Shown piece after piece: positions 13,065 to 58,473 of a stretch of 63,685 nucleotides of DNA. The notes under the pieces were generated by a model. It was not told the origin of the DNA, did not search any database, and worked only from the letters and a program-made list of their open reading frames with translations. This DNA is from a virus. The number at the start of each line of letters is the position of its first letter. Within the stretch, counting starts at the first letter, position 1. The position numbers and the translations under genes are program-made. The stretch lies in the IMG/VR virus record IMGVR_UViG_3300047360_000121, positions 1-63,685 of that record, one strand, 5' to 3'.

Positions 13065-13697
13065 ATGACCATCATCCCCGCAACACCCGGCACGACGCTG
13101 ATCCGGCATGAGCACGTCCCGCACGACGAGGTGCCCGTGATCGGCTGGAACGTGACCGCGCAGGGAACCCGCCCCGTGACGGCGCACATGATTCCGCTCG
13201 TGCTCGTCTGGGGCGACATCATCGAGTTCCCCGACGAGACGGTGCTCGATCTGGCCGCGAACGAGGTCTATGCCTCGCGCTCGGCTTGGCTCACCGAAAC
13301 CGACCACGCGACGCACGGCAAGCCGATCACCGGGCAGCACGTCAGCGCCCGGCCCGCTTCGGCAGTCACCGCGCCGCGCCCCGCGTCCAAGCGCACCGGG
13401 AAAGCGGTCGGCCCGTTCGACGTGGCGTTCAGCGGCAAGACCTACCAACGCTGGTCGAACTGGTGGATCGCAGCGGACGACGGCGATTTCGTCTTTGAAC
13501 TCCCGCCGAACACCGCCTCGCCGTCGAACGAGTTCGTGACTCGCGTGAACCGCGAGGTCGTCGCTGACAAGATCGCGCACGGTGCGGTGAAACTGACCTA
13601 CGACATGGTGCGCGGCACGGTGCCGCTGCCCGGTGAAACGAAACCCCAAGAGGCCGAAGACGACGACGATGACGACGACGGCCTCGACATCATCTGA
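13065..13697 (+). CDS. Unknown protein with acidic C-terminal tail (..GLDII)
   Basis: This 210-residue protein starts at ATG 13065 behind a strong AGGAGAG site; an in-frame GTG at 13032 overlaps the previous stop and is the alternative. There are two globular parts: residues about 1-85 (VIGWNVTAQG, DIIEFPDETVLDLAANEVYAS) and about 115-185 (FDVAFSGKTYQRWSNWWI). A basic Pro/Ala linker joins them. The last 17 residues are a run of Asp ending GLDII, the tail shared with many other proteins of this phage. Function unknown. Confidence 0.78.
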   Translation: MTIIPATPGTTLIRHEHVPHDEVPVIGWNVTAQGTRPVTAHMIPLVLVWGDIIEFPDETVLDLAANEVYASRSAWLTETDHATHGKPITGQHVSARPASAVTAPRPASKRTGKAVGPFDVAFSGKTYQRWSNWWIAADDGDFVFELPPNTASPSNEFVTRVNREVVADKIAHGAVKLTYDMVRGTVPLPGETKPQEAEDDDDDDDGLDII

Positions 13698-13711
13698 ACG
13701 AAGGACTGGAC

Positions 13712-14068
13712 ATGCCGAAAGACTCCCAAGTGGCCCTGCCGAACTCCCAGAGCGCGGGTGACGAACTCAGGCAGTTCGTTGAGCGCGTCGAGCATATCGA
13801 GGCGGAACAGGCCGACCTCGCTGAACAGAAAAAGGAGGTCATGCAAGAACTGAAGGGCCGTGGATACGACACGAAGATGGTCCGAAAGCTGATCGCCGAG
13901 CGCAAGCGCGACCCGGATGATGTGGCCGAGGAGATCGCCGTGATGGAGATGTATCGGGAAGCCCTCGGCATGTCCACGTCGCTCCGCAACACCGCCAACA
14001 CGGGCTATGACCCCGATGTTGACGAGGACGAGGACGACGATTCCGACGCTGAAGGCGGTATGGTCTAA
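13712..14068 (+). CDS. GapR-like (DUF2312) nucleoid protein with acidic tail
   Basis: This 118-residue protein matches the DUF2312/GapR family: ELRQFVERVEHIEAEQADL, a coiled-coil helix, then KGRGYDTKMVRKLIAERKRDP and MYREALGM. In alphaproteobacteria GapR is a small DNA-binding protein that embraces overtwisted DNA near forks and transcription ends. The host protein stops soon after the LGM region, whereas this one adds about 28 residues of Asp/Glu ending AEGGMV. The start follows GAAGGACTGGAC. It sits among other acidic-tailed genes and shares one base with the next start. The family call is strong; whether it acts on phage or host DNA is open. Confidence 0.88.
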   Translation: MPKDSQVALPNSQSAGDELRQFVERVEHIEAEQADLAEQKKEVMQELKGRGYDTKMVRKLIAERKRDPDDVAEEIAVMEMYREALGMSTSLRNTANTGYDPDVDEDEDDDSDAEGGMV

Positions 14069-14322
14069 TGGCCCGCAACGCTCTCCTGACCGAGATTGCC
14101 GAGCGGCTTGAGCGCACCGGCGGCGCGGGGTTCTCCTGCTTCTGGATCGAAGGCGAGTGGCGCGTGACGCCGCGCACCGCGACCGGATGGGGGAACTTCG
14201 CCACGGGGGCCACGATCAGCGAAGCGATCGAGAACGCTTTCGCGCCGCGCGCGGTGGACTATAACGCCCCGGTCGTGATCCACGATGATGACCCGGATGA
14301 CGACGGACTGGACCTCGTATGA
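14068..14322 (+). CDS. Small unknown protein with acidic tail (..GLDLV)
   Basis: This 84-residue protein overlaps the GapR stop by one base and the next gene by ATGA. The N-terminal 65 residues look like a small alpha/beta domain (LLTEIAERLERTGG, SCFWIEGEWRVTPRT, ISEAIENAF). The end is a DDDPDDD run followed by GLDLV, nearly the same as the tail of the 13065 product. Function unknown. Confidence 0.75.
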   Translation: MARNALLTEIAERLERTGGAGFSCFWIEGEWRVTPRTATGWGNFATGATISEAIENAFAPRAVDYNAPVVIHDDDPDDDGLDLV

Positions 14323-14939
14323 CCGACACCCACTTCACCGAAGGCCCGCTCGCCGGGCTGCGCCGGAACCACTATGGCGCGATCCTCGTGGACCCGCCGT
14401 GGTCGTTCCTGACGCGCTCGGACAAGGGCAAGGACCGCTCTCCCGAACAGCACTACGACTGCATGACGCTGGACGAGATCAAGGCGCTGCCGGTGAAGGA
14501 ACTGGCCGCGAAGAACTGCGCCCTGTTCATGTGGGTGATCGACACGCACCTGCCCATGGCCCTCGACGTGATCGAGGCGTGGGGCTTCACCTACAAGACG
14601 CGGGCCTTCTGCTGGGCCAAGCAGAACCGCAAGAGCGAAGGCTTCTTCGTCGGCATGGGCTACTGGACTCGGGCCAACCCCGAGGACTGCCTGTTCGCCA
14701 CGGTCGGCGCACCGAAGCGACAGGCGCGCGACGTGCGCCGCCTGATCGTCAGCCCGGTTCGCGAGCACTCCCGCAAGCCGGACGAGACGCTTGAGCGCGT
14801 CGAGCGGCTGGTGCCCGGCCCGTATTGCGAACTGTTCAGCCGGACGCCGCGCCCCGGCTGGGATCAGATGGGCAACCAGAAAGACCGCTTCCTCGCGCGC
14901 GGCGAAGAACTGGACGACGACGCGCTCGCGCTCGTCTGA
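14319..14939 (+). CDS. MT-A70 family DNA N6-adenine methyltransferase
   Basis: This 206-residue protein has the MT-A70 signature DPPW (VDPPWSF, about residue 27), followed by HYDCMTLDEIKALPV, ALFMWVIDTHL and the C-terminal region EHSRKPDETLERVERLV, as in phage MT-A70 enzymes that methylate adenine in DNA. It is the third methyltransferase in 5 kb. It carries a short acidic end, ELDDD followed by ALALV, of the shared tail type. It starts in an ATGA overlap with the preceding gene. Confidence 0.9.
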   Translation: MTDTHFTEGPLAGLRRNHYGAILVDPPWSFLTRSDKGKDRSPEQHYDCMTLDEIKALPVKELAAKNCALFMWVIDTHLPMALDVIEAWGFTYKTRAFCWAKQNRKSEGFFVGMGYWTRANPEDCLFATVGAPKRQARDVRRLIVSPVREHSRKPDETLERVERLVPGPYCELFSRTPRPGWDQMGNQKDRFLARGEELDDDALALV

Positions 14940-14956
14940 ACGGAAGGACTCCTGAC

Positions 14957-15115
14957 ATGCCGAAACGACAATTCATGCTGAAGAACTACCCCCGATGCCC
15001 GAAGTGTGGGGCGACCTCGGGCGACGCATGGGGCCAATGCGAGGGTTCCTGCCCGCTCCCGTTTTCCCCGAACTTCAAGCAGGCCGAAGCCGACAAATAC
15101 GAGGGCCTGAAATGA
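14957..15115 (+). CDS. Small zinc-ribbon protein
   Basis: This 52-residue protein starts at ATG 14957 behind GGAAGGACTCCTGAC, a leader repeated before several genes. CPKCG at residues 14-18 and two later Cys (CEGSC) suggest a small zinc ribbon. The stop overlaps the next start as ATGA. Function unknown; it could be a nucleic-acid or protein adaptor. Confidence 0.65.
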   Translation: MPKRQFMLKNYPRCPKCGATSGDAWGQCEGSCPLPFSPNFKQAEADKYEGLK

Positions 15116-15336
15116 CCTGCGCAACCTGTAAATATGCTGCGCCGGATTCCACGGCCCACACGGGTCTGGTCTGCACGATCCAGTTGCCGCGCAACCTGAT
15201 CCACTCCTTCGCGCACCTGTTGGCGAACTTCGAGCCGTGGGATGACCTGCCGCCTGCTCCCGTCCGCCCGCAAGACGGCTGTGACTTGCACGAGGAGGAA
15301 GACTTCGACCCGATCGACACCGGAGACGTGGTATGA
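15112..15336 (+). CDS. Small Cys-rich protein with acidic tail (..TGDVV)
   Basis: This 74-residue protein begins with CATC (residues 3-6) and has two more Cys (CTIQ and GCDLH), so a zinc site is likely. The last 16 residues (EEEDFDPIDTGDVV) are of the shared acidic-aliphatic tail type. It is coupled by ATGA overlaps on both sides. No family is recognised. Confidence 0.68.
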   Translation: MTCATCKYAAPDSTAHTGLVCTIQLPRNLIHSFAHLLANFEPWDDLPPAPVRPQDGCDLHEEEDFDPIDTGDVV

Positions 15337-15530
15337 ACCGGCGACCCAAACTGCCGCACCTCGCGCGCCTCTATGACGAGGGTGCCGAGGCTGCGGCGAC
15401 TGGGGCCGAGTGCCCGTACAAAGGCGACGGCCACGGCAACCTGACACGCCGTCATATCTGGCGGCAGGGCAACGAAGACACTATCCGAGAAGCGGACGAT
15501 CTCGAATCCGACATCGCCGCTCTCATCTGA
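15333..15530 (+). CDS. RMF/CrpP-like small protein
   Basis: This 65-residue protein has a DEGAEAAATGAECPYKGDG stretch, then RRHIWRQGNED. This resembles the ribosome modulation factor / CrpP superfamily pattern (helix with EG..A..G, then CPY, then W..G). Members bind ribosomes or have other small-protein roles. It ends SDIAALI after acidic residues, a weaker version of the shared tail. It starts in an ATGA overlap. The family call is moderate. Confidence 0.6.
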   Translation: MNRRPKLPHLARLYDEGAEAAATGAECPYKGDGHGNLTRRHIWRQGNEDTIREADDLESDIAALI

Positions 15531-15547
15531 CACGAAGGACTCCTGAC

Positions 15548-35548: not shown

Positions 35549-36127
35549 TCAGACCATGCCGTCCGTGTCGTCACCTTCGGCGTCGTCGGCCTTGGCGGCT
35601 TCACGCTTCTCGGCGATGCGCTTCTTCAGCCCGGCTTCCTTCAGGTTGCCGTTGGGGGCCTCGCCGAACACCTCCTCGTATTCGGCGCGCAGGCGGTCGA
35701 GGTCGGACAGCGCGGGCTGTTCGACATCGGCGGCGTTGCCTTCTTTGCGCTCGGCCTCGTCCACCTTCGCATCGGGCGAGGTCTGACCTTCGCCGACGTT
35801 GGCCTCGTCCACCTTGGACTCGACGGTTTCGGCGGGCTTGGCCGGTTCCGCCCCGGCGACCGGGCGCACGGTGTTCGTTTCGGGCGTGGTGACATCGTAC
35901 AGCCGCGAGCCGCGCAGGATTTCATCGTCGGCCTCGACCGGGCGCGCGGCCCGCATTTCGATGAACTCGGCTTCCTGCTCCTCGGACTGCGCCTTGAACT
36001 GCGCACCGTTGGGGATGGTCTTCGTCTTGGGCCGCACCGGGGCAAGACCCTTGGCCGGATCACCGGCCTTGCCGGGGGTCACGGTCATGTGGATTTCGGT
36101 GAGGGCGATCAGTTGCTTCAGGGCCAT
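35549..36127 (-). CDS. FI-like head protein with acidic C-terminal tail
   Basis: This 192-residue protein follows the capsid gene. The first third is basic and proline rich, the middle is acidic and low complexity (VESKVDEANVGEG), and residues about 138-175 look like a small helical SAP/HeH-type fold (LDRLRAEYEEVFGEAPNGNL). It ends DDTDGMV, the shared acidic-aliphatic tail. In lambda, FI helps DNA packaging; by position this is a counterpart. Confidence 0.65.
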   Translation of the reverse strand: MALKQLIALTEIHMTVTPGKAGDPAKGLAPVRPKTKTIPNGAQFKAQSEEQEAEFIEMRAARPVEADDEILRGSRLYDVTTPETNTVRPVAGAEPAKPAETVESKVDEANVGEGQTSPDAKVDEAERKEGNAADVEQPALSDLDRLRAEYEEVFGEAPNGNLKEAGLKKRIAEKREAAKADDAEGDDTDGMV

Positions 36128-40990: not shown

Positions 40991-43125
40991 GCCAGATTAC
41001 TCGCCAGTTTGGACAGACTATGCCCCGGTTTCGGTTCAGCGTCGAACGCTTTTTCCTGCACCGACGGATCGAAGACCAAATCGTTCTGGTCCCACTCCTC
41101 GGCCCAAGACGGCGGGTTGGACGGGTCCATGTATTCCAGACCGATCGCAGGCGTCAACGTAGCGGCGACACAATAGACCAGCAAGTCCCAGCTTTCGTTT
41201 CGGTAGTTCCGGGGGTTCAGCCAGCCCTTCACGGGGTCCTTCACCTCGACGGTCAGTTCGATGTAGAAGTTATCGTTCAGCCACTTCGGGAAGCAGAACC
41301 GACCGCCGGGATCGAGACGGTCGAGTTTCTTGTCCACCATGTCCTTCACGGTGTTCGGGTTGATGAACAGCACGGGGATTTCGCCCCGCGCCCCGGCGTT
41401 CCGGTCCTTCCGCTGCGAGTCCGGGTAGCTGATCGCGACGCGCGGCGCTTCCTTCTGCGAGGCACCCTTCAGCAACATGAAGCGCCCGGCCATGCCTGGG
41501 TCCCATTCATAGGTTCCCTCGTCCCGGTTGGTCTGGGATTCTTCGTCCTCGGGGCCATAGCGCAGCCACCGCACGAAGTTGTATGCGTTCGCGGTCACGC
41601 CCTCGCGGCCACCGGAGTCGCAAATCACCTGCTTCACGCCCATCATGCGGCCCGAGCCGTCCGACAGCGGGTAAGCCTTCGCCAGCACCTCGTCGGCCAG
41701 CAGCTTCCAGTCCTCGGGGTACGCGCCGGGGTTCACCCACAGGCGCTCGCCGTCGTCGTCCTTCCGCTTGGACTTCTTGATCTCGAAGCGGTCGATCACG
41801 TAGATGTCGCCGTTCAGCGCGACGCCCTGTACCTGAACCACGAAGCGGTTCTTCTGCACGTCAATCGTCGCGATCAGGAAGCGCACCGCCGCCGGGACTT
41901 CGCGGAAGCCGAGATCGCGGGCGCGGGCCTTGATCGCCTCGGGCACCCGGTCGCTGGCGAGGCTCTTGGGCGTGTAGGCGTCACCCTGATCGGTGTTCAC
42001 GGTCGTCTTCAGCGTCTCCTCAGAGCCGGTGTTCTCGTAGTCCTTAATCGCCGACAGGTAATTGAACACGAGCGTCTTCCAGTCGGAGAACGCGGCGGCG
42101 ACGCCCTTCAACCAGAACGAGGCGATCGAGGAGCGCATCGGCGTCCCGGTGATCGAGCCGTCCTTCGCCCATGTCATGCCGTCCTGAATCCAGCGCCCGT
42201 TCCGGTTCATCTCGTGCTTGCCGGGCATCCCGTCCATCGGGTCGTGGTGGTAGTCGATCCCGCAATGCGGGCAGCGCAGCGTCGCCATCTCGGCAGCCGC
42301 CATCATGTCGTCGGTTTTGGGCCAGACTAGCAGGCTGAAGTCCGGCTCAAACTTGCCGTGGCACTCAACACAATCCCAGTACCAGCGCCGCCGGTCGCCC
42401 CGGTTGTAGAGCGCGAGGACGCCACGGGTGGGCGGGGCTTCATGCTTCGTGGCGCGGACCCATTTCGGGTTCTCGACGGCGTAGCCGGGCGAGGACTCAG
42501 CCGCGCACATGCCGTGACTGCGGAAGGAGGTCGCGCGCTTTCGGGCGAGGTCGAAGGGGTTGCCCTCGCCGTCCACGTCTTCCGGCATCCGGTCGTAGTC
42601 GGTCAGCAGCAGGCGGGGGATCGGCTTGCCGGACAGTTCGTTGATCGTCGGCCACGACAGGGTGAGCATCATCCCCGACTTGTAGTGCTTGTCGAAGGTG
42701 TTGTCGGCACTCTTGGACGGGGCCAGCATCGCGCCGACTTCTGGGCTGTGCCGGTGCATCCGGTCCACCCGGCGCATCGAGAAGTCGCGCGCCGTGGTCT
42801 GCGAGGTCTGCACGAGCATCATGTCGGCGGGGTCGCACATGACGGAATAAGTCTGCCAATTCAAGAACATCTCAGTTTTCCCGGCCTGAGCCGGGCCACT
42901 GAAAACCATGCCCGTGAAGTCCCGAGATTGCAGGGTGTTCATCGGCTCGATCAGGTATGGCGTGATGTCGTTCTTCAGCGGCCCGACGTAAGCGCCGGGG
43001 TTGTTCAGCTTGCGGTATCGCTCGGCAGCCTCGGCCACGGTCAGGCGCTCAGGCGGGCGCGCGCTCTTGGCCGCGTCCACGACCAGCGACTCGATCGTCT
43101 CATTGAACAGGTGCCGGGCGTTCAT
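40987..43125 (-). CDS. terL: Terminase large subunit (GpA type)
   Basis: This 712-residue protein is a lambda GpA-like packaging ATPase and nuclease. Walker A is GPAQAGKTE (about residue 80) and a Walker B-like strand is LLLTDYDRMPEDVDG. A zinc-binding pair, CVECHGKFE and CPHCGIDYHHD, follows, and the nuclease half contains FLIATIDVQKNRFVVQVQG. Length is normal for the family. GpA terminases usually cut at cos sites, which implies unit-length cohesive ends, although no cos site was identified here. Confidence 0.94.
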   Translation of the reverse strand: MNARHLFNETIESLVVDAAKSARPPERLTVAEAAERYRKLNNPGAYVGPLKNDITPYLIEPMNTLQSRDFTGMVFSGPAQAGKTEMFLNWQTYSVMCDPADMMLVQTSQTTARDFSMRRVDRMHRHSPEVGAMLAPSKSADNTFDKHYKSGMMLTLSWPTINELSGKPIPRLLLTDYDRMPEDVDGEGNPFDLARKRATSFRSHGMCAAESSPGYAVENPKWVRATKHEAPPTRGVLALYNRGDRRRWYWDCVECHGKFEPDFSLLVWPKTDDMMAAAEMATLRCPHCGIDYHHDPMDGMPGKHEMNRNGRWIQDGMTWAKDGSITGTPMRSSIASFWLKGVAAAFSDWKTLVFNYLSAIKDYENTGSEETLKTTVNTDQGDAYTPKSLASDRVPEAIKARARDLGFREVPAAVRFLIATIDVQKNRFVVQVQGVALNGDIYVIDRFEIKKSKRKDDDGERLWVNPGAYPEDWKLLADEVLAKAYPLSDGSGRMMGVKQVICDSGGREGVTANAYNFVRWLRYGPEDEESQTNRDEGTYEWDPGMAGRFMLLKGASQKEAPRVAISYPDSQRKDRNAGARGEIPVLFINPNTVKDMVDKKLDRLDPGGRFCFPKWLNDNFYIELTVEVKDPVKGWLNPRNYRNESWDLLVYCVAATLTPAIGLEYMDPSNPPSWAEEWDQNDLVFDPSVQEKAFDAEPKPGHSLSKLASNLA

Positions 43126-43820
43126 ACCATGTCCTCGATCTCGGCGTCTTCGGCGTCTTCGTCCGCGTCGTCGGCCATGATGGTTTCGATGCGCTCGGAG
43201 TCGCCGAACCGTTGCTCAAGTTCGGCCAACTGCGGCCCGGTCATGTTCTCGTTCATCTGCTTCACGAGGGCGTCGAAAATCGCACCCTGAAGCGCATCCG
43301 ACATTTCGATGATGATCCGGCGCTGATCCTCGGAAAGCTGGACCTGCCGCTCGACGGTATCGGCCCAAAGCTGGACGGTGAACTTGATCGTCTGGAAGGT
43401 GCTGCCGAGCACTTCCCTGATCTGGTCCGTGCGCCACAGGTCGCCCGCGTTCTCCTCCCACTTCTGCCGCTTCAGCATGGCGTCCCACACCGACTGCTGA
43501 AGCGCCGGGGGCAGGTCGCCCTTCTTCAGCGCCTTCATGTATTCCTTCGTGCTGAAGGCCGGGGCCACGAGGAAACCCGCCGCCGTGCGCAGGTCGTAGA
43601 GGTGGACCTTCATCTTCGTGCCGCGCGTCTTCGTCGCCTTGATCGGGCAGCCGCGCAGCCGGTAGCGCACGGTCGGCTCGGGCATCTTGAACGCCGTGGA
43701 CAGCCACGCCGTCGTCACGCCCTTGGCGGTCAGATCGCCGTCTGCGGCGAGCCGGTGATCCACGCCCTGCTGGCGGGACTGCCGGTGCAGGTCCAGCCGC
43801 TTTTCGATGCTCTTAGCCAT
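43122..43820 (-). CDS. terS: Terminase small subunit (DUF1441/Nu1-like) with acidic tail
   Basis: This 232-residue protein lies just before the large subunit with an ATGA overlap. The N-terminal 60 residues contain a helix-turn-helix-like DNA-recognition part (GVTTAWLSTAFKMPEPTVRYRL), and the middle is helical for oligomerisation (RQVQLSEDQRRIIIEMSDAL). It would select the packaging site. It ends AEDAEIEDMV after an acidic run, the shared tail of this phage. Confidence 0.82.
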   Translation of the reverse strand: MAKSIEKRLDLHRQSRQQGVDHRLAADGDLTAKGVTTAWLSTAFKMPEPTVRYRLRGCPIKATKTRGTKMKVHLYDLRTAAGFLVAPAFSTKEYMKALKKGDLPPALQQSVWDAMLKRQKWEENAGDLWRTDQIREVLGSTFQTIKFTVQLWADTVERQVQLSEDQRRIIIEMSDALQGAIFDALVKQMNENMTGPQLAELEQRFGDSERIETIMADDADEDAEDAEIEDMV

Positions 43821-45315
43821 GCGCGGCCCTCTCCAACTGCACCATGACAGCTTCCTTCAATCGGTCTTCGGTCGCCTTCCGGTTCCGCAGGACCGGCAGG
43901 ATCAGTTCGTCGGCGGTGCCCTCCGCGATGATTCGGTGCAGGAACACCCGGTCGCGCGTCTGCCCCGATCGGTGCAGCCGCTTGAGGAACTGCATGTAGA
44001 GTTCATGACTCCACGTCAGCCCGTACCAAACCGAGATGTTGGACCCGGCCTGAAAGTTCAGCCCGTGGCCCGCACTGGCGGGGTGCAGCAACAGCATCCG
44101 AATCCGCCCGGCGTTCCAGTCGCGCATATCGCTCGCGCTATCACCGAAAACCCGGACGTAGGGAAACCGCTTCTTGATCGCATCTTTATCGAACTTGAAC
44201 GAGTAGGCAACCAGCATTGGCGCACCCGCACTCTCCTGAACGATGGATTCCAGCGCGTCCAGCTTCTCGGTGTGGACCGGCACCGCGTCGCCGTCCTCGG
44301 TATAGAGCGAGCCGTTGGCGAACTGAAGCAGCTTGCCGGTGAGCACACCGTTGTTCACGGCCTCGATCGTCTCAGGTTCGTCCCGGTTGTTCACGAGGTC
44401 GATCGCCATCTCGCGCTCAAACTCGCGGTATCGCTTCATCACGGCCCGGTCGAGCCGGACCTTATGGTCGATCTCGACCAGCGGCGGCAGCTTCAGGTAG
44501 TCCTGTTCGCGCAGCGCGAAGAACCGATCCTTGATCCGGCTCATGATCTCATCCTCGGAATGGGCCAGAGGTTCGATCGTATGGGCGTACTGGTTCTCCA
44601 CGAACCACCGCTGCTTGTAGGCCGTGATCGACGTGCCGAGGCGTTCCCCCTTGTCCACGGCGTACATCGGCCCCCAGAGGTCGATCAGGCCGTTCGGGGC
44701 CGGGGTGCCGGACAGGCCGACGAACCGTACCGTCTTCGTGCGCACCCGGTCGATCACACCGAGTTCGGTCAGGCGCGGCGCGGGCATGGTGCCGTCTGCG
44801 CGGGGCTTCGGCTTCGAGCGTTTCCGGCCCGCCTTCAGGCGGCTCACCTCGTCGTAGATGATCGTGTCGAAGGGCCAGCGCCGCAGGCCGATGTATTTGA
44901 TGAGCCAGCCGAGGTTTTCCCGGTTGACGATCGTGATCTTGCACGGCCCGAAGCGCAGCGCGGCCTTCCGCTCGGCCTCAGTGCCGGTGACGATCCGGTA
45001 GCGCAGATGCCGCGAGAAAGACCACTTCGCGATCTCCTCGGGCCATGTGTTCTCGGTCACGCGCAGCGGCGCGATGATGAGGACGTGCTTGGCCTCGCCG
45101 GTAGCGATCAGGTCGGACACGGCCTTCAGCACCGCCCCGGTCTTCCCGAGGCCCATCTCAGCGCCCAGCAGGACGCCCGGCAGGCTCTTGATCGCGTCCA
45201 CCATCCAGTTCTGGTAGGGGCGCAGGTTCTCAGCGTCGAGGATCGTCTTCGGCGGGCCGTGGATCAGTTCGATCGCCTCGATGTCGGTCAGGTGCTTCGG
45301 GAGAACGGTCTTCAC
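43813..45315 (-). CDS. SNF2-type DNA helicase/translocase
   Basis: This 500-residue superfamily 2 protein has Walker A GAEMGLGKTGA (about residue 51), a DEXX-type box IIYDEVSRLK, motif III LSGTPAPNG, and motif VI QFLKRLHRSGQTRDRV. Phage proteins of this group remodel or unwind DNA during replication and recombination. It follows the VRR-NUC gene with overlap, and the two may act as a helicase-nuclease pair. Confidence 0.92.
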   Translation of the reverse strand: MKTVLPKHLTDIEAIELIHGPPKTILDAENLRPYQNWMVDAIKSLPGVLLGAEMGLGKTGAVLKAVSDLIATGEAKHVLIIAPLRVTENTWPEEIAKWSFSRHLRYRIVTGTEAERKAALRFGPCKITIVNRENLGWLIKYIGLRRWPFDTIIYDEVSRLKAGRKRSKPKPRADGTMPAPRLTELGVIDRVRTKTVRFVGLSGTPAPNGLIDLWGPMYAVDKGERLGTSITAYKQRWFVENQYAHTIEPLAHSEDEIMSRIKDRFFALREQDYLKLPPLVEIDHKVRLDRAVMKRYREFEREMAIDLVNNRDEPETIEAVNNGVLTGKLLQFANGSLYTEDGDAVPVHTEKLDALESIVQESAGAPMLVAYSFKFDKDAIKKRFPYVRVFGDSASDMRDWNAGRIRMLLLHPASAGHGLNFQAGSNISVWYGLTWSHELYMQFLKRLHRSGQTRDRVFLHRIIAEGTADELILPVLRNRKATEDRLKEAVMVQLERAAHG

Positions 45316-45635
45316 ACAATGTCCTTCCAGTCGTCGTCCAGCGGTGGCCCGCCGTTGTGCCCCGGCAGCAGCCAGAGGATGCGCAGGGCGTCCGTGGCAG
45401 TATCGCAGACATGCACCTCAATGCCAGCCTTCCGCATCCTCTCATGCTCAACGGTCTGGCCCCGGCGAGGCGACTCACCGGGGCGCTTGAACTCGATGAA
45501 GACCGTTCCGCGATCAGCGCGGGCGAACAGCCGGTCGGGTGCGTGGCGGCGACCCGGCCATTGGACCTTCCGCACGTAGTAGCCCGCCATCTCGGCGCGG
45601 CGAACGACCGGCATCTCGACGGCAGACTCCCGCAT
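45312..45635 (-). CDS. VRR-NUC domain nuclease
   Basis: This 107-residue protein is a small VRR-NUC (PDDEXK) nuclease: GYYVRKVQWPGRRHAPDRLFA supplies the Asp, and GTVFIEFKRPGESP the E.K pair. Phage versions cut branched DNA or Holliday junctions. It ends LDDDWKDIV, a short form of the shared tail. It overlaps the helicase gene by four bases. Confidence 0.87.
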   Translation of the reverse strand: MRESAVEMPVVRRAEMAGYYVRKVQWPGRRHAPDRLFARADRGTVFIEFKRPGESPRRGQTVEHERMRKAGIEVHVCDTATDALRILWLLPGHNGGPPLDDDWKDIV

Positions 45636-48359: not shown

Positions 48360-49043
48360 TCAGATCATGTCGTCGTCATCATCCTCCTCGTCATCGCTGA
48401 AGTCGCCGCCGATCGACCCCTCGGTCCCGGCCATATCGTCATCGAACTCCTCGTCAACGTCGATCGAGGTGCCGCCGAACGGCTCACCGTCGCGGAAGAA
48501 CTGGACCGCCTTGACCTGCGCGTTCAGGCGCTTGCCGTGCTTGTTGTCCTGCGCCCAGATCACGAGCACCGCGTTCACGTAGCAACCCGAGTAGGGGGCG
48601 TTCTTGCCGCCGCCCTCGGCCTCGATCCACTTGCCGTTGCCGTCCTTGCGGTTAGTAATGACGGACGGGCGCTCGTTCAGTTGGGCGTTGGCCGAAGCGT
48701 AGTGGTTCCCGGCGTAACCGTCCCAATTCTCCTGATCGCCGTCGCGGAAGAACTTCCGGTCGTCCTTGATCTTGGGCCACTTGTCGGGATCGTCGCCCCA
48801 CTTTTTCGCCTTGGCCTCGTCGCCCGCCGCCTTGATCGCCTTCAGGATGGGCATCTTCTTGCCCTTGAAGACGCCCTGCATCTCCTTCGCGTCTTCCTTG
48901 GGAATCAGGAAGTTCGCGCCCCACGTCTCGCGGATCGTGCCGTCGTCGTTCTCGGAACGATTCGGCTCGTACAGCTTCTCGAAGGAGAGGCGCACGTTGA
49001 GCAGGGTGACTTTGCCGATGATGTCTGCTTTGGCCTTCGCCAT
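48360..49043 (-). CDS. Single-stranded DNA-binding protein (DUF2815 type)
   Basis: This 227-residue protein matches DUF2815, the phage ssDNA-binding proteins encoded next to PolA-type polymerases: KVTLLNVRLSFEKLYEP at the start, ANFLIPKEDAKEM, and YSGCYVNAVLVIWAQDN followed by GKRLNAQVKAVQFFRDGE. It coats ssDNA at forks. The last 25 residues are strongly acidic and end DDDDDMI. This parallels the acidic tip of bacterial SSB that recruits partners and is the model for the tails on other proteins here. Confidence 0.88.
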   Translation of the reverse strand: MAKAKADIIGKVTLLNVRLSFEKLYEPNRSENDDGTIRETWGANFLIPKEDAKEMQGVFKGKKMPILKAIKAAGDEAKAKKWGDDPDKWPKIKDDRKFFRDGDQENWDGYAGNHYASANAQLNERPSVITNRKDGNGKWIEAEGGGKNAPYSGCYVNAVLVIWAQDNKHGKRLNAQVKAVQFFRDGEPFGGTSIDVDEEFDDDMAGTEGSIGGDFSDDEEDDDDDMI

Positions 49044-49052
49044 GGTAGTCTC

Positions 49053-50333
49053 CTAGATTACGTCGTCTTCGTCAGGTGCGTCCGGCAGGTCCGACAGGGC
49101 ATCCCGTATCGGCTCACCCGGATCAGTTTCAGGGACGAGGATCGGCCTCGCTTCCCCCATCTGCACATACCGGGCGTAGACTTCCCGGTACTGCTTCTTC
49201 CCGACCAGCTTCTCAAGCTGCGGCGGGGAGATCAGAGCGCGCGGCAGGTATGCCTCGTCACCCAGATTCTTCTTCAGGATCACCTCGGCGCGCACGGGGT
49301 CGGTGAAGGCGCGCTTGCCGCGCCGTCCGGCGACCATCTTCATGCCGGGCACCTCGCGGCCCATCTCGGCGTCCTTGTAGGCTTCCTCCTGAAGCTGCTT
49401 CAGGTACTTCTCGATGGTGCCCTTGGACAAGAGCACCTGCGACCGCTGTTCGGGCGTCATGGCCCGGCGCAGCGTGGGTTCCTCGCCGACCATGAACTCG
49501 GTTTCGAGGTCATCGAACTCCAAGCCCATGAGGTCGGTCAACCAGCGGGCGCGGGCCTCGCAGGTATTGTAGCGCGCCGCCGGGCAGAAGTTGCATTGCT
49601 TCTCGCCGGGCACGAAGGGCGCATCGGGGTCTTCGGTCAGCGCGGCGTCCTCGCGAATGCGACGGCCCTCGCGCAACAGGTGCCCCATGGTCGTCACCCA
49701 CGTTCCGCCACCGCCGGGCGCGCGGGGTTGCTCGATCATCACCTGAACCTTGATGTCCTCGGCCCAAGAGGCGTTCCGGTCGGGGTCGATCCCCCGGCGA
49801 CGCGCTTCCTCGGCGAACATATCGCGGGCGATGTCGGACCACGTTCCGAGCGCATAGAGGATCGCTTGATCGTTCTCCTCGGGATGGACCGGGACGCCCT
49901 GCCCGTATTTCCAGTCGAAGACGGTGATCGTCCAGTTCGCGGGGTCGAGCAGCGCGGCGTCGGTCGTGCCGAACTCGCCTTCGCCGACCCATTCGGCAAG
50001 GCTCACGCGCTTCTCGACAAGAAGGGTGGTGGTGTCCGTCTCCATGGCCCACAGCAGGTCCAGACCGGCCAGCATGTTGTCGGCCATCTCGTGATCGAAC
50101 TCAAGCCAGCCGAAGCCCTCGACCTCCATCCCGTCACCGACGAAGCCGTGCGGCTCAAGCCCCATTTCGAGGCAGTCGGCGGCGAAGTCGTGGAAGACGG
50201 TGCCATAGGCAGCTTCGATGCCAGCGGTATTCGGGTGGCCTGCCGACGCCCGAACCGAAGCCGGGCATTTCCGCCAGCGGTGGGCCGTGGAAGGCCCACG
50301 CTTCGAGTGCGCAATCTCGTCGGTGTCGGACAT
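49053..50333 (-). CDS. RecB/Cas4-like PDDEXK nuclease (DUF2800)
   Basis: This 426-residue protein fits DUF2800, a PDDEXK exonuclease group in phage replication modules: a start with STAHRWRKCPASVRAS, then GTVFHDFAADCLE, the active-site block GTTDAALL...VFDWKYGQG (Asp and D.K), and NDQAILYALG. A cysteine cluster (CNFCPAARYNTC) may hold an iron-sulphur cluster or zinc. It likely processes DNA ends for recombination. It ends APDEDDVI, the shared tail. ATG 50333 is chosen at the protein-like boundary; the ribosome-binding site is weak (GGAAC). Confidence 0.85.
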   Translation of the reverse strand: MSDTDEIAHSKRGPSTAHRWRKCPASVRASAGHPNTAGIEAAYGTVFHDFAADCLEMGLEPHGFVGDGMEVEGFGWLEFDHEMADNMLAGLDLLWAMETDTTTLLVEKRVSLAEWVGEGEFGTTDAALLDPANWTITVFDWKYGQGVPVHPEENDQAILYALGTWSDIARDMFAEEARRRGIDPDRNASWAEDIKVQVMIEQPRAPGGGGTWVTTMGHLLREGRRIREDAALTEDPDAPFVPGEKQCNFCPAARYNTCEARARWLTDLMGLEFDDLETEFMVGEEPTLRRAMTPEQRSQVLLSKGTIEKYLKQLQEEAYKDAEMGREVPGMKMVAGRRGKRAFTDPVRAEVILKKNLGDEAYLPRALISPPQLEKLVGKKQYREVYARYVQMGEARPILVPETDPGEPIRDALSDLPDAPDEDDVI

Positions 50334-50663: not shown

Positions 50664-51197
50664 TCAGACGACATCACCGTCATCGTCGCCATCGTCATCC
50701 GAGTCGGCCATGAACTCGGGGGTCCGGCCCTCCTCGAAGTCCTCGACGTAGCCGAGGGCTTCCGCCAGCTTGTCGCCGGGGATCGCGGTGAAGCGGGCGA
50801 CATCGTAGTGCTCGATGATCTTGCCGATGTTCGCCTTGCGCTCGGCGCGCTCGGCCTTGTCGCCGGTCTTCAGGTAGGTGGTGACGCGCTCGGCAGCCTC
50901 GGCCACGGAGATTTCGTCGCCGTCGCCTTCGCTCTCCTCGGCAGCGGCCTTCTCGGCAGCAGCCTTGTCGGCGGCGGCTTTCTCCTTCGCGGCCTTGGCC
51001 TTAGCAGCCTTCTCGGCCTTGGCGGCTTTCTCGGCGTCGGCGTCCGAGGTGTCGGCGGCGGCAGCCTTGGTCGAGGTGGTCTTCGCGGACGCCGCGCCAG
51101 CGGCCATCTTGTCGATCGCGGCGGTGTGTGCCTCGGTGGCCTCGGCATTGCGCAGGAGGGCGGCGGTCAGGTCAGCGATCATCTTGTCCATGGACAT
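50664..51197 (-). CDS. Ala/Lys-rich helical protein with acidic tail, first gene of the minus block
   Basis: This 177-residue protein has an N-terminal short domain (MIADLTAALLRNAEATEAH), a 60-residue Ala/Lys/Glu low-complexity helix, and then a small globular part (AERVTTYLKTGDKAERAERKANIGKIIEHYDV). The low-complexity part resembles linkers of histone H1-like proteins. It ends DDDGDDDGDVV, a full shared tail. ATG 51197 follows GAAAGGACC. As first gene behind the divergent promoter region it should be made early. Confidence 0.75.
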   Translation of the reverse strand: MSMDKMIADLTAALLRNAEATEAHTAAIDKMAAGAASAKTTSTKAAAADTSDADAEKAAKAEKAAKAKAAKEKAAADKAAAEKAAAEESEGDGDEISVAEAAERVTTYLKTGDKAERAERKANIGKIIEHYDVARFTAIPGDKLAEALGYVEDFEEGRTPEFMADSDDDGDDDGDVV

Positions 51198-51665: not shown

Positions 51666-54395
51666 ATGAAGACGAGCAGAATCAACGGCGCGAAGATGGT
51701 CCGTTTCTCCCAAGGAGACGGATCGAACTTCGGCAAAGTGCGCGACAAGACTGAAACGCTGGACGACTTCTATTCGCTGTTCCACGACGCGATGAACACC
51801 GGAGAGACGTTCCGGCAGTTCAACAAGATGTCGGACCTTCAGCAGCGTGACAAGAAGGCAATGCGCGGATTCTGGTTCCGCGCCCACACGGGGGGCAAGC
51901 GGCGGAACCGATCATCGGCGCTGCCGTCCGACTTCATCACCCTCGATTTCGACTATGTGACGGTCGAGTTCTTCAAGGCCGTATATAAGAACACCCTCGG
52001 CATCCCCTTCGAGTACGCCGTCCACACCTCGCGGCGGCACACACCGGACGACCCGCGCTTCCGGGTCATCATCCCGGTCAGCGTCGGCGTGGATAACGAC
52101 GCCTACCCGGCGGTGAGCCGCATCTTGGCCTCGCAGTTCGACCCGACCATGAAGCTGCCTGACCCGGTGTCCTTCCGGTCGGCGCAGATGATGTTCCTGC
52201 CGACGCGGTGCTCGGACGGCAAATACCATTTCGTCGTCCACGAGGGTGAACTCGCCGATCCGAACGAGGTGCTGGACACCTTCGAGATGACGGTCGGCGA
52301 CTGGCGCGACATCACGCTCCTGCCGAAAGCGCCCGACGAGAAGCTGCGCCAGACCGCCGAGAAGGCCGAAGACCCGACCGAGAAGGTCGGCCCGGTCGGC
52401 AACTTCTGCCGCGCCTACAGCGTCGAGGACGCGATCGACAAGTTCCTGCCCGATGTCTATGCCCCGGTGGACCTGCCGAGCGCCAAGCCGCGCTACTCGT
52501 ACCTCGGGGGCACCACGGTCAACGGGGCCGAGGTGCAGGACGACGGCCTGTTCCTCTATTCCCACCACGGGTCCGACCCGTGCTCGGACATGCTCGTCAA
52601 CGCCTTCGATCTCGTGCGCATCCACAAGTTCGCCGACGAGGACAAGGGCTTCGACGCCGAGGGCAAGAAGGCGAACGAATACCCCTCCTACAAGGCCATG
52701 GTCGAGTTCATCAAGGACGACGACGCCTATCGCAAACAGGTTGTCGCGTCGAACTACGACACGAACGAGATGTTCGATGACCTGTGGGATGAGGATGAGA
52801 TCGAGATCGAGGACGACGAGATCGACTCCATGGTGGGAACGGTGCCTGAACCCGTCGATCGCGACGAGGACGATGAGGACGACGAGGACGACCCGAGCGA
52901 ACTGGTGGGCGACGTGCCGGCGAAAGAGTTGGGCCGGGCGATCCTGAAGCCGCTCAAGCCGAAGAAGCGGCCCAAGCCCGAGGAGGGCTGGGTGGCGACG
53001 CTGGAAGCCGACCGGGCGGGCAAGGTGATCCCCAATATCGCCAACATCACGCGCATTCTGACCTGCGACCCGCGCTTCCGCGACAGCATCGCGTTCAACG
53101 AGTTCCACGCCCGCGCCGTCTGCCGCGTCCCGTTGCGCACGAAGCTGGACTGGATCACGCCGCCGCCGATCGCCGACAAGGAGAACGGCGACCCGTGGCA
53201 GGATTACCACGAGAACAACGTGCGCGTGGTGCTCGAAAGCGAGGCCGGGACCGGCAAGAAGGGCTGGGGCATGAAGGTGTCCGACCGCGACCTCACCGGG
53301 GCCGTGGACCTCGCCGCGCGCATGAACAGCTTCCACCCGGTCAGGGACCGGCTTGAGTCCTTCGATTGGGACAAGAACACCCGGCTCGATCGGCTCTTTA
53401 TCGACTACCTCGGCTGCCCCGACACGCCCTACTACCGTGAGGCCGCGCGCAAGTTCCTGATCGCCGCCGTGGCGCGGGTCTATGAGCCGGGGCACAAGTT
53501 CGACTACGTGCCGACGCTGTGGGGCGCGCAGGGCAAGCGCAAGTCCACCTTCATCAACGTGCTCGCGCTCGGCTGGGCCGGGGAACTGAAGGCCAACTTC
53601 TCGGACGAAAAGGCCATGGTGGAGCAGATGATGGGCTGCCTCATCATGGAACTGCCGGAACTCTCCGCTGTGGGCCGCTCGGCGGTCGAGGACATGAAAG
53701 CCTTCATCTCGGGCACCGAGACGAACGTGCGCCTCGCCTACCGGCGCAACGCTCAGGTCTTCAAGCGCCAGTGCGTCTTCATGGGGTCCACGAACAACAA
53801 GGACTTCCTGCGGGACCAGACCGGCAACCGGCGCTTTTGGCCGATCGAGGTCGTCGTGGACAGCATTGAAACCGACCGGCTCGCGCGAGCCATGCCGCAG
53901 ATTTGGGCCGAGGCCGTGGCCGCATACCGGGCCATGCGCGCCGTCCAGCCGCACGGGATGCTCCCGCTGCACCTTACGTCGTTTGAGGCCCAGCAGGAGG
54001 CCGAGGAACTGCAAGCCGGTAGCCTGCGCGAGAACGACGCCGACATGGTGGCCGCGATCCTCGCCGATAAACTGAACTCGAAGGTCCGCGTCGGCGACGA
54101 CTTTGACGAGGCCCAAGGCGGCGCGACCTACGAGTGGCCGAAGCGTGTCTTCGCCCACAAGATCGCGACCGAATGGCTCGACGGCGTGAAGGTCACGGGG
54201 CAGATGTCGCAGGTCGTCGCGGAAGCCCTCAACAAGCTGGGCTGGGTCAAGTCGGGGGCGCGCGAGCGGGTCACTATCAACGGTGAGCGGACGAAGAACC
54301 CGGTGCGCTCCTACGTTCCGGGGCCGGACCAAATCGCAGTTTGGGAACAACTGGACGAGGCGGAAAAGAGCAACGTGGTCGAGTTCAGGAAGTAG
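51666..54395 (+). CDS. Primase/VapE-type replicative helicase with unusual Walker A
   Basis: This is about 909 residues from ATG 51666; a GTG at 51612 would add 18 hydrophobic residues and is less likely. The N-terminal 200 residues look like a primase-type domain (YAVHTSRRHTPDDPRFRVII). A long acidic stretch follows (about 375-415). The C-terminal half is a virulence-associated E-type SF3-like helicase: Walker A region GAQGKRKST (about residue 619), Walker B CLIMELPELSA, sensor FMGSTN, arginine finger DQTGNRRFW. It probably starts and drives phage replication. The usual Gly before Lys in Walker A is Arg. A strong terminator follows. Confidence 0.88.
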   Translation: MKTSRINGAKMVRFSQGDGSNFGKVRDKTETLDDFYSLFHDAMNTGETFRQFNKMSDLQQRDKKAMRGFWFRAHTGGKRRNRSSALPSDFITLDFDYVTVEFFKAVYKNTLGIPFEYAVHTSRRHTPDDPRFRVIIPVSVGVDNDAYPAVSRILASQFDPTMKLPDPVSFRSAQMMFLPTRCSDGKYHFVVHEGELADPNEVLDTFEMTVGDWRDITLLPKAPDEKLRQTAEKAEDPTEKVGPVGNFCRAYSVEDAIDKFLPDVYAPVDLPSAKPRYSYLGGTTVNGAEVQDDGLFLYSHHGSDPCSDMLVNAFDLVRIHKFADEDKGFDAEGKKANEYPSYKAMVEFIKDDDAYRKQVVASNYDTNEMFDDLWDEDEIEIEDDEIDSMVGTVPEPVDRDEDDEDDEDDPSELVGDVPAKELGRAILKPLKPKKRPKPEEGWVATLEADRAGKVIPNIANITRILTCDPRFRDSIAFNEFHARAVCRVPLRTKLDWITPPPIADKENGDPWQDYHENNVRVVLESEAGTGKKGWGMKVSDRDLTGAVDLAARMNSFHPVRDRLESFDWDKNTRLDRLFIDYLGCPDTPYYREAARKFLIAAVARVYEPGHKFDYVPTLWGAQGKRKSTFINVLALGWAGELKANFSDEKAMVEQMMGCLIMELPELSAVGRSAVEDMKAFISGTETNVRLAYRRNAQVFKRQCVFMGSTNNKDFLRDQTGNRRFWPIEVVVDSIETDRLARAMPQIWAEAVAAYRAMRAVQPHGMLPLHLTSFEAQQEAEELQAGSLRENDADMVAAILADKLNSKVRVGDDFDEAQGGATYEWPKRVFAHKIATEWLDGVKVTGQMSQVVAEALNKLGWVKSGARERVTINGERTKNPVRSYVPGPDQIAVWEQLDEAEKSNVVEFRK

Positions 54396-54398: not shown

Positions 54399-54817
54399 CC
54401 GGCACAGATCGAAGCGAGGAGCAACGGCGACCCGTGTGGGTCGCCGTTGTCGTTTTTGCCCCCTGAACTTTTCAGTTTGGTTCAGTCCGTGGTTCAGCGC
54501 GAGCATGACCGAAAATCTCGAAAAATGGCTCGAATCTGTGCCGGGGTGGCACAGACCCCGGCACACCCCGGCACAGCCTTATGAATAAGGGTTTTGAGGC
54601 CCTTTCGAGCCGGAAGCTGTGCCGGTGTGCCGGGCATTTCCAACTTAGCAAGCCGCGCACCGCTCCCGACGATAGTTCACCCGTTAAACTATCTATTTTC
54701 CCCTCCTCTTGTTTAAGTTCCATTACCCCGACACACCCGACACACCCGGCACAAAGGTAGCAGAAACAAGGGGTTAGGCTGTGCCGGGGTAAAACGACCC
54801 GGCACACCCCCGGCACA
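54399..54817. repeat. Iteron-like array of CCGGCACA (10 copies, both orientations)
   Basis: The 8-mer CCGGCACA occurs at 54399, 54558, 54568, 54746, 54799 and 54810, and its complement TGTGCCGG at 54537, 54618, 54626 and 54780. Several pairs are 8-11 bases apart. The array lies directly after the primase/helicase gene in a non-coding stretch, as replication iterons often do. The same stretch is also dense in CTGAA/TTCAG. Confidence 0.75.
54422..54457 (+). terminator. Strong rho-independent terminator
   Basis: CAACGGCGACCC (54422-54433), loop GTGT, GGGTCGCCGTTG (54438-54449): a 12-bp perfect stem followed by TCGTTTTT. It ends the 51.3-54.4 kb unit and insulates the repeat-rich region beyond. 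Confidence 0.9.
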
Positions 54818-55137
54818 GACTGAACTGCGCTCACTGAACTGTTTCAGTCGTTTGGGCCAAGCCCCCGCCGGATCGAGTTCAGGATTTCAGGAGGGGCCAG
54901 TTCAGGGGGTCGCCCCGCGCCCGCCGGATCGTCGCCGAGGCCGGAATATCGGCTTTCCCGAGATCACGATCGCCCACCACTGAACGACTAAACTGAAAAA
55001 ATATCCGATAAACGCTCAGAGTTTAGAAAAACTTCGGACATCCGCGCTCAGCGCCACCCCCCGGACGGTCCCACGACCCCCGGAGGACCCGAGCGACCAA
55101 ACTTCGTTCGGTCGTTTAGTAGTTTAGTATAGTGATG

Positions 55138-55230
55138 CACGCATATACATATATCCATATATCTTGGTATCCGAATGTATTGATACTTGCATATGCTAGT
55201 ATCCGCATATCTTGATACGTGGATATGTAA
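55138..55230. other. AT-rich phased ATAT segment (possible unwinding element)
   Basis: In a GC-rich genome this stretch is built from ATAT, TATCC and TTGATAC steps spaced about ten bases apart. It has repeated ATATCTTG (55159, 55207), GTATCCG (two copies), TTGATAC (two copies) and the palindrome GCATATGC. It resembles a DNA unwinding or bent-DNA element. No credible protein is encoded. Confidence 0.55.
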
Positions 55231-55452
55231 GACCTAGTGCCGCGATGCAGCGCCGATCTACGCCGCAGCGCGGCGGCTGACTGGTGGCACCTCATGCCCT
55301 GCCGCGTGTCGCCCTTCAGCCCGTCGCGCCGCGTTCCGTTGGATTCGCTAATGCTGCCGCACGGGCTTGCGCCGGGCCGGATTGCCCCATGCCGATCGGG
55401 CCGGACGCTTGCCGCCAGAACCGGGCACGGCAGCCCGTGCAAATATAAGCCG

Positions 55453-55481
55453 TTGTCTTGTGTTAAATTGCACCTTACCTA
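55453..55481 (+). promoter_or_regulatory. Possible promoter for the 55556 gene
   Basis: TTGTCT (55453-55458), 17 bases, TACCTA (55476-55481). It lies 75 bases before the only nearby plus-strand gene. The -10 box is weak, and there is no spacer motif like the other promoters. Confidence 0.35.
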
Positions 55482-55555
55482 GTAGAGCACGGGCCGCGCC
55501 TATGGGCGGGCCGCTTTCCGGGCCGCACGGCTCTACTGACACGAGGACTCAACCT

Positions 55556-55864
55556 ATGACCAAACCTGTTTCCATCCGGGGGACTCGCTACCCTTCCGCC
55601 ACGGCTGCCGCGCGCGCCCTTGGCGTCACGCCGCAGACCGTTTGCAATGCGCGCAAGATCGGCACGTTGGACAACGTAGGGCAGGGCAGGGAAGCCCTTG
55701 CCGCCCATACACGAGGAACGGGCCGCGCTAACAAGCCGGTGACGTTGGGTGGGGTAGAGCACGAGTCGCACAAGGCGGCAGCGGCAGCCCTTGGAGTCCA
55801 TCCTTCCGACATAGGGGGATACCTGCGGACGCTTGCCGCCCTAGGGCGCGCGGCAGGGAAGTAG
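55556..55864 (+). CDS. Two NUMOD-like DNA-binding repeats without a nuclease
   Basis: This 102-residue protein starts at ATG 55556 behind ACGAGGAC. It has two copies of one helix-turn-helix-type unit: YPSATAAARALGVTPQTVCN (residues 12-31) and EHESHKAAAAALGVHPSDIG. The units resemble the NUMOD repeats that follow GIY-YIG or HNH domains in homing endonucleases, but no nuclease domain is present. It may be a small DNA-binding protein or the remnant of a homing enzyme. It is followed by the duplicated palindrome. Confidence 0.7.
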   Translation: MTKPVSIRGTRYPSATAAARALGVTPQTVCNARKIGTLDNVGQGREALAAHTRGTGRANKPVTLGGVEHESHKAAAAALGVHPSDIGGYLRTLAALGRAAGK

Positions 55865-55876
55865 GGGCCTCTATCC

Positions 55877-55986
55877 CCCCGGACATGCGAAGGGCCGCCC
55901 TAGGGCGGCCCTCTATCGTTCTGGCGGGGTAGCAGGCCCCGGACATGCGAAGGGCCGCCCTAGGGCGGCCCTCTATCGTTCTGGCG
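55877..55986. repeat. Tandem 60-bp duplication with 22-bp palindromes
   Basis: The 50-base block 55877-55926 recurs at 55937-55986, exactly 60 bases on. Each copy contains AGGGCCGCCCTAGGGCGGCC(CT), a perfect 22-bp palindrome, flanked by the same sequence on both sides. It separates the plus-strand NUMOD-like gene from the convergent minus-strand cassette, so it probably acts as a doubled bidirectional terminator, although T runs are lacking. Confidence 0.85.
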
Positions 55987-57076: not shown

Positions 57077-57155
57077 TGGTTTAGCCTTTCTCTTTTCATG
57101 CGGGATTGCATGGGAATGGCGCGACGGCTTGCGCCGCGCCGAACCGATTCAATCC
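57073..57155 (-). repeat. 83-base repeated leader, copy A
   Basis: Matches 58166-58247 with one substitution and one single-base gap. On the minus strand it runs from the stop codon of the upstream gene through a hairpin with a GCAA tetraloop (CGGC/GCCG stem) to the ribosome-binding site and start codon of the 56441 gene. A shared RNA control element is likely. Confidence 0.85.
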
Positions 57156-57418: not shown

Positions 57419-57419
57419 T

Positions 57420-57710: not shown

Positions 57711-57725
57711 TGGTTCGCCCTTTCC

Positions 57726-58459: not shown

Positions 58460-58473
58460 GGAATTGACTCCTA

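Follow-up and report, generated by a model that had tools for sequence, protein, structure and literature searches.

The acidic C-terminal tails of the phage T7 single-strand DNA-binding protein (SSB) gp2.5 and primase-helicase gp4, which end in ..DGDF and ..NDTDF and served as our positive control, bind the gp5 polymerase (PMC12593628, PMC5686142), and in phage T4 the proteins gp43, gp55 and gp33 end in hydrophobic and acidic sequences that closely resemble each other, can be interchanged and are directed to one hub (PMC2988020), the clamp. In E. coli, the SSB C-terminus (SSB-Ct) binds the OB domain of the SSB itself (PMC11947617). Bacterial SSB-Ct (DDDIPF) combines an acidic stretch, a hydrophobic end and a free C-terminus; it is nearly invariant and sits on the SSB, the partners carrying the pockets. 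Finally, the ORF6 SSB of phage Enc34 (Casjensviridae, DUF2815) has an acidic disordered tail that enters the groove of a neighbouring molecule in the crystal, and a tip, ..DEDEV, that we took from a primer sequence; the accessible portion of this report (PMC5686142) mentions no other phage protein that has this tip.

The window analysed here is a whole virus record of 63.7 kb, for which Casjensviridae are the nearest named relatives. Like T7, this phage has unrelated replication proteins with an acidic run and the same terminal residue, presumably addressed to a common partner, and its SSB has the Gp2.5/Enc34 fold. In contrast to the two tailed T7 proteins, about twelve are found in the window, including the terminase small subunit (TerS), GapR, a methyltransferase and nucleases; moreover, the tip in this phage group is aliphatic and lineage-specific, and its sharing does not need a family-A polymerase. 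T4 differs in having three tailed proteins, a clamp as hub and a tagged polymerase, which was never tipped in our phage group (0/22); no sliding clamp was found among the families covered by the general family search. The bacterial SSB-Ct differs in that its tip is confined to the SSB, whereas here many putative partners are tipped and the tip varies. The literature search returned the precedents from T7, T4 and E. coli, whereas shared tips specific to a genome were not described in any paper found. Thus, the opinion of an earlier sequence-only reading that no phage tag of exactly this kind had been described was too broad as regards T7 and T4, but holds for how many proteins are tailed and for a tip that differs from phage to phage; within the literature searched, the principle of docking tails is known and these two aspects are new. 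We consider it probable (roughly three in four) that the tailed proteins share a docking tag of the SSB-Ct, T7 and T4-clamp type, with a lineage-specific tip and one common phage-encoded partner.

A tail was scored when a protein ended in [ILMV][ILV] with at least four D/E within the preceding 12 residues. This rule selected 12 of the 73 called proteins of the window, as compared to a mean of 0.225 (maximum 3) in 2,000 composition shuffles and 0.20 predicted from internal 14-mers of the same proteins, and the enrichment over composition on which the sequence-only reading had staked its proposal is therefore present. All 12 proteins have an acidic flexible C-terminal segment with a hydrophobic end, and the tips mostly read D-[IMVL]-[VI]. 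An Rfam search gave no match. That reading had described the tag as belonging to six neighbouring proteins, and all six C-termini that it quoted were found in place; six further tails, all on the minus strand, make this a genome-wide feature, and a local six-gene cluster was accordingly rejected.

On the plus strand, gpA (13065-13697; 210 aa, no assigned family) ends in ..QEAEDDDDDDDGLDII, encoded at about 13647-13697, and its syntenic relatives in phages G009 and G010 carry the tips of their own phages (..DDFSDVV and ..VNVEDLV). It is followed by a GapR-like DNA-binding protein (13712-14068; 118 aa, PF10073 E=3e-26). Since the PF10073 match stops at residue 86 of 118 and most relatives terminate there, the remaining 32 acidic residues (13970-14068), ending in ..DAEGGMV, are an extension beyond the normal family end, just as had been proposed. 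The endings in relatives are ..DDDGDTVV (G009), ..GDGEGVV (G010) and ..EDDDDGEV (RHphX2_30), and more distant relatives are without the extension. The third protein, gpC (14068-14322; 84 aa, no assigned family), has the tail ..HDDDPDDDGLDLV (14281-14322); its positional relatives end in ..FDIADFV and ..FNVEDLI, and a 68-aa ORF of S-ESS1 in ..EIEDLL. In the MT-A70 DNA methyltransferase (14319-14939; 206 aa), matches to PF05063 (E=1e-27) and PHROG 359 extend up to residues 187 and 191, respectively, and the tail reads ..ELDDDALALV (14892-14939), with ..AEIEDLI, ..ETEIASVV and ..AEIEELV as the endings in S-ESS1, G009 and G010. The absence of the tails from close relatives, named beforehand as a reason to abandon the idea, was not observed: the order gpA-GapR-gpC-MT-A70 is kept in two related 65-kb phages, and all four tails match the tip of their own phage. 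Two small proteins complete the plus-strand set, namely a Cys-containing protein (15112-15336; 74 aa, tail ..HEEEDFDPIDTGDVV, 15289-15336) and a weakly RMF-like one (15333-15530; 65 aa, tail ..ADDLESDIAALI, 15480-15530). Of the product identities suggested earlier, GapR and MT-A70 were matched, whereas the supposed zinc protein ending at 15336, best read with the boundaries given here, had neither a family match nor relatives in this analysis, and the RMF match was below the Pfam cut-off (E=0.0004, 20.7 bits versus 27.9).

Among the minus-strand proteins, the product of 48360-49043 (227 aa; DUF2815, PF10991 E=9e-30, PHROG 112) is an acidic-tailed OB-fold SSB belonging to the T7/Enc34 type, and its tip was used as the reference tip of the window phage. 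Foldseek ranked the Enc34 SSB structures 5odj/5odl first (5odj E=4e-13), followed by T7 gp2.5. The AlphaFold model has a core pLDDT of about 95-98 and about 58 in the tail (..SDDEEDDDDDMI, 48360-48434), which is disordered and shows no docking in this monomer model. The adjacent DUF2800/PHROG 69 exonuclease (49053-50333; 426 aa) ends in ..DAPDEDDVI (49053-49088), and upstream of it lies the gene of a K/A-rich protein (50664-51197; 177 aa, tail ..DSDDDGDDDGDVV, 50664-50708) with no PHROG or Pfam match and a predicted all-helical fold without a PDB match. The remaining tails are found on TerS (43122-43820; 232 aa, PHROG 141 E=2e-34 up to residue 200, tail ..DADEDAEDAEIEDMV, 43122-43220), on a small VRR/Holliday-resolvase-like endonuclease (45312-45614; 100 aa, PHROG 93 E=4e-19 and PHROG 5702, tail ..DDDWKDIV, 45312-45365) and on the protein encoded directly after the major capsid gene (35549-36127; 192 aa, PHROG 590, tail ..EGDDTDGMV, 35549-35599). 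The VapE primase-helicase (51666-54395) has no C-terminal tip in the window phage; its linker contains the internal acidic motifs EDDEIDSMVG and DDEDDPSELVGD (52803-52908, plus strand), which may resemble the tip, a likeness seen at the level of sequence only.

In relatives, the equivalent gene classes are also tailed, and the last two to three residues are phage-specific yet common within a phage (e.g., DDEI, DLLG, GGL, SVV or DDLV); in the cultured Ruegeria phage DSS3-P1, for instance, the tip is DDLLG. The SSB tip matched the tips of the K/A-rich protein, exonuclease, VapE and TerS of the same genome (p about 5e-5, permutation), also when one genome per 45% SSB-core cluster was used, and it covaried with the tips of the exonuclease, K/A-rich protein, primase-helicase, TerS and post-capsid gene (p down to 1e-5). 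For the K/A-rich protein this was seen among 16 cases with acidic tails (p=5e-5), and in the majority of 25 phages the post-capsid ORF ends in the SSB tip (BLOSUM3 8.52 vs 0.98, p=1e-5). The SSB-exonuclease covariation was seen again in 46 new genomes (p=5e-5); for SSB and VapE, no such repetition was obtained beyond Casjensviridae (p=0.16). Carriage of the tag is incomplete by class (exonuclease 12/26, VapE 13/26, TerS 15/25 phages), and in other phages tagged proteins of no prior assignment include RdgC-like, RusA-like, ParB-like and methyltransferase proteins. With the tips of polymerase, portal, capsid and protease, the SSB tip covaries weakly or not at all: the TerL, portal, MCP and protease tips did not match the SSB tip of the same genome, and two control pairs each showed a small signal under a single stratification (portal p=0.006, polymerase p=0.004), with negative absolute similarity. 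Non-homologous proteins thus share tips that change together between phages, which favours the earlier proposal that a docking tag for a single hub has been added; the tip may be bound by a single putative partner.

Since the covariation is retained when both proteins are acidic, it concerns the tip itself, and it also remains within clades. If the tails did no more than mimic DNA by their acidity or slow the DNA binding of their own proteins electrostatically, with the likeness of the tips as a by-product, one could account for the finding that most tagged proteins bind DNA and that Enc34 SSB without its tail binds dsDNA (PMC5686142), but not for covariation of the last two to three residues between unrelated folds, nor for the shared tips (..GL) of phage Nazgul, which lack an acidic run, and the portal end is acidic yet without tip covariation; we regard this explanation as improbable. 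It is very improbable that the similarity is a by-product at the DNA level, arising from base composition, from overlaps between genes (GTATGA) or from the copying of tail cassettes. Some of the genes do overlap at the stop and GAC repeats are common; however, several tails are followed by spacers rather than overlaps, tips are missing from structural genes of the same genome, and the similarity of codons at shared tip residues does not exceed that predicted from codon usage (151/355 versus 163 expected). Codon identity at chance level indicates that the tips are not a copied DNA cassette and the independent codons that selection acts on the protein; together with the stop contexts, the codon test led us to reject the cassette or overlap artefact. 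Controlled proteolysis, also raised by the sequence-only reading, gained no support: the C-terminal position and hydrophobic final residues would suit a degron or anti-degron, but the restriction to DNA-handling proteins and the phage-specific tips fit docking better, leaving this role with hardly any likelihood.

As to the reader of the tag, the tips could mimic the host SSB C-terminus (DDDIPF), or compete for its host readers, and thereby hijack repair and replication enzymes. Some phage primase-helicases or SSBs do end in ..IPF or ..FPF (L109, L139, L146 and L108). However, Pro-Phe is missing from most tips, the terminal D-x-P-F was not found in the window and ..PF only in a few other phages. 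Moreover, phages whose hosts are related have different tips (Klebsiella DDLV, Proteus EDDI, Enc34 DEDEV; Rhodobacterales DLLG and DDIA), unlike the expectation for a host reader, which makes this improbable too. The phage DNA polymerase, gathering proteins at the fork through basic patches as on T7 gp5, has the direct T7 precedent in its favour, and many of these phages encode a family-A polymerase, in no case with a tip. On the other hand, PF00476 had no match in RcSalem, pCB2051A, AchV4 or RHphX2_30, and at least three of these genomes (the last three named) clearly share tips. Among 33 genomes, similarity of the non-SSB tips was independent of polymerase distance (rho -0.02, p=0.37) and tracked SSB-core distance (rho -0.31, p=0.001; the better predictor in 99% of bootstraps), a signal that is inflated by shared phylogeny and weak in the wider set of 75 genomes (rho -0.09). 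A polymerase reader is therefore disfavoured and we find it unlikely. Tentatively, the OB domain of the phage SSB is the most likely partner, at rather less than even odds, and tagged proteins would in this way be brought to SSB assemblies or to DNA covered by SSB; as alternatives, the tip may be read by the primase-helicase, by a different protein of the replisome or by several partners.

The shared docking tag would consist of a flexible acidic arm, a short hydrophobic tip and a free carboxylate, and may function like the SSB C-terminal tip. Within a phage, the SSB, exonuclease, primase-helicase, TerS, capsid-adjacent factor, methyltransferase, GapR and other DNA-handling proteins would present the same tip to one phage-encoded partner and so gather on replicating and packaging DNA, possibly, by analogy, through a condensate step. 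As the pocket of the partner evolves, all tips would change along with it, giving each phage lineage its own code. In its most specific form, which we hold to be slightly short of an even chance, one phage reader, probably the SSB OB domain, would sort more than ten replication, recombination, methylation, nucleoid and packaging proteins into one DNA factory, and the terminal two to three residues would form codes, specific to the lineage and orthogonal to one another, that are jointly re-tuned in many genes.

As the sequence of the tip is enough to predict membership, it becomes possible to test how proteins of phage replication, recombination and packaging come together. The tip marks genes of no assigned function as part of the DNA machinery and links packaging factors to the SSB, and the lineage-specific tips provide natural swaps of specificity with which the reader could be found. 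In conclusion, the data suggest that each virus may give the proteins that it uses in replication, recombination and packaging an address of its own, read by one partner.

Gene calling on the 63,685-base record, all of which the window covers, gave 73 genes, with Casjensviridae (Synechococcus virus S-ESS1, Ruegeria phages DSS3-P1 and V16, BcepNazgul and others) as nearest named relatives. The C-terminus of a called protein is set by the stop codon alone, and all six acidic-hydrophobic endings quoted by the sequence-only reading for neighbouring proteins at 13065-15530 (gpA, GapR, gpC, MT-A70, Cys-containing and RMF-like) were correct. The same type of ending was found on six further genes outside this region, namely SSB (48360-49043, minus strand; ..DDDDDMI), the DUF2800 exonuclease (..DEDDVI), an unassigned K/A-rich protein (50664-51197; ..DDGDVV), the terminase small subunit TerS (..EIEDMV), a small endonuclease (..DDWKDIV) and the protein encoded downstream of the major capsid gene (..DDTDGMV). 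Enrichment was evident, as 12 window proteins fitted a fixed rule compared to 0.225 for composition shuffles and 0.20 for internal 14-mers. The K/A-rich protein, encoded upstream of the exonuclease, is conserved and predicted to be helical but gave no family or fold match; most relatives have one, usually tagged. The window primase-helicase VapE (51666-54395) has no C-terminal tip and carries two internal tip-like acidic motifs at 52803-52908, in an inter-domain linker. Confidently called genes are sparse at 54600-60000, where the GC content drops to 0.56 between 57 and 59 kb.

The gene order gpA-GapR-gpC-MT-A70 is conserved in two related 65-kb phages, G009 and G010, the latter with one small additional gene between gpC and MT-A70. 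The tails, too, are kept in these close relatives, all four proteins matching their own phage: ..DVV, ..TVV, ..DFV and ..SVV in G009 (SSB ..SVV), and ..DLV, ..GVV, ..DLI and ..ELV in G010 (SSB ..SLV). In S-ESS1, MT-A70 ends ..EDLI, and small ORFs ending ..EDLL and ..EDLI flank a GapR without extension. No relatives of the Cys-containing and RMF-like proteins were found among the compared phages. GapR homologues of another phage group (L147, L149, L153, L154) end ..GLDLI or ..GLDLL without acidic extension, matching the SSB ends of that group (..EDLI, ..DDLL, ..EDVL). Operon spacers at 13698-13711, 14940-14956 and 15531-15547 share a near-identical spacer and ribosome-binding sequence (..GAAGGACT..GACATG).

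For a wider comparison, genes were called in 14 Casjensviridae-type phages besides the window, with BPP-1 and T7 as outgroups, and 160 IMG/VR loci were gathered with exonuclease and polymerase profiles; since family HMMs were searched against stop-to-stop frames, the tips (last two to three residues) are independent of start choice. The final residues of the SSB tail are particular to each phage and are shared by unrelated proteins of that phage. AhMtk13b has DDDEI on SSB, exonuclease and SNF2, and DEEI on TerS and VapE; DSS3-P1 has DLLG on SSB, exonuclease, VapE and the capsid-adjacent protein, and DILG on the K/A-rich protein; Nazgul has ..GL on SSB, exonuclease, VapE, TerS, SNF2 and the capsid-adjacent protein; and L168 has ..EEV or ..DEV on SSB, exonuclease, VapE and TerS. 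Own-phage tips were frequent on K/A-rich proteins (14/17), TerS (15/25), VapE (13/26) and exonuclease (12/26), and rare on polymerase (0/22), portal (1/25), MCP (2/25) and protease (1/25), against a background of 234/1909 for all proteins. In other phages, tagged proteins that had no assigned function gave matches to families of RdgC-like recombination exonucleases, RusA-like resolvases, ParB-like proteins and methyltransferases. The VapE of L109, L139, L146, L105, L088 and L115 and the SSB of L108 end ..PF (e.g., ..DHIPF, ..ENIPF, ..DEDFPF). The bacterial host SSB tip, DDDIPF, has the same end, and from sequence resemblance these phage proteins may possibly mimic it.

Tip similarity (summed BLOSUM62 score of the three C-terminal residues) was compared with permuted genomes, each 45% SSB-core cluster being represented by a single genome. 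SSB tips covaried with those of K/A-rich proteins (6.00 observed, -0.23 expected; n = 18), exonuclease (1.28, -1.74; n = 39), VapE (2.89, -1.29; n = 37) and TerS (4.52, 0.47; n = 25), each at p = 5e-5, whereas TerL, portal, MCP and protease showed zero effect and polymerase gave p = 0.06 with negative similarity. The effect persisted when both proteins were acidic (SSB-K/A, 10.31 vs. 1.44) and was absent for acidic portals. Permutation inside 45% clades only gave p = 0.0025 for K/A-rich, 0.0001 for VapE, 0.0019 for TerS and 0.03 for exonuclease; with 50% clades, only K/A-rich and TerS kept significance. The controls were imperfectly silent, because portal (p = 0.006) and polymerase (p = 0.004) each responded in one stratification, with negative absolute similarity. 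The ORF downstream of the capsid gene, spotted first in a list and afterwards tested by position, also matched SSB (8.52 observed, 0.98 expected; 25 phages, p = 1e-5). In a further set of loci, retrieved with polymerase profiles other than the first, with SSB cores at least 25% different from every earlier locus and appearing to lie mostly outside Casjensviridae, SSB-exonuclease covariation recurred (n = 46, p = 5e-5; acidic pairs, n = 14, p = 1.5e-4), while SSB-VapE covariation did not (p = 0.16).

The sharing is a matter of protein, not DNA: shared tip residues in unrelated genes of one phage use the same codon in 151/355 cases, compared to 163 expected from codon usage, and the window tails differ among themselves in codons and stop contexts. 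By analogy, we consider the tails to be probably docking tags, with a likelihood of roughly three in four. In T7, our positive control, gp2.5 ends ..DGDF and gp4 ends ..NDTDF, and both tails bind polymerase gp5 (PMC12593628, PMC5686142); in T4, gp43, gp55 and gp33 have interchangeable hydrophobic-acidic C-termini read by clamp gp45 (PMC2988020). In both, unrelated proteins with common acidic-hydrophobic C-termini meet one hub, as proposed here, and by this logic one reader per phage would bind the tags. Family-A polymerase is disfavoured as this reader, because, unlike in other Casjensviridae, a match to it is missing in RcSalem, pCB2051A, AchV4 and RHphX2_30 (W05, W06, W07, W13), three of which clearly share tips, and because the tips carried by proteins other than SSB do not track how far this polymerase has diverged. 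They do track divergence of the SSB core, with a modest correlation that is in part phylogenetic and that weakens in the wider set. A host protein is an unlikely reader, since tips differ among phages of related hosts. We tentatively suggest the SSB OB domain, for which there are direct precedents: the Enc34 SSB acidic tail enters the groove of a neighbour in the crystal (PMC5686142), and in E. coli the C-terminal peptide of SSB binds the OB domain of SSB itself and promotes condensation (PMC11947617).

A shared acidic-hydrophobic C-terminal docking tail is of a known kind. A literature search, with subscription titles mostly outside its reach, did not find the variant described here, in which about a dozen proteins, those of packaging and the nucleoid among them, carry a tip that is specific to the lineage and shifts on all of them together.
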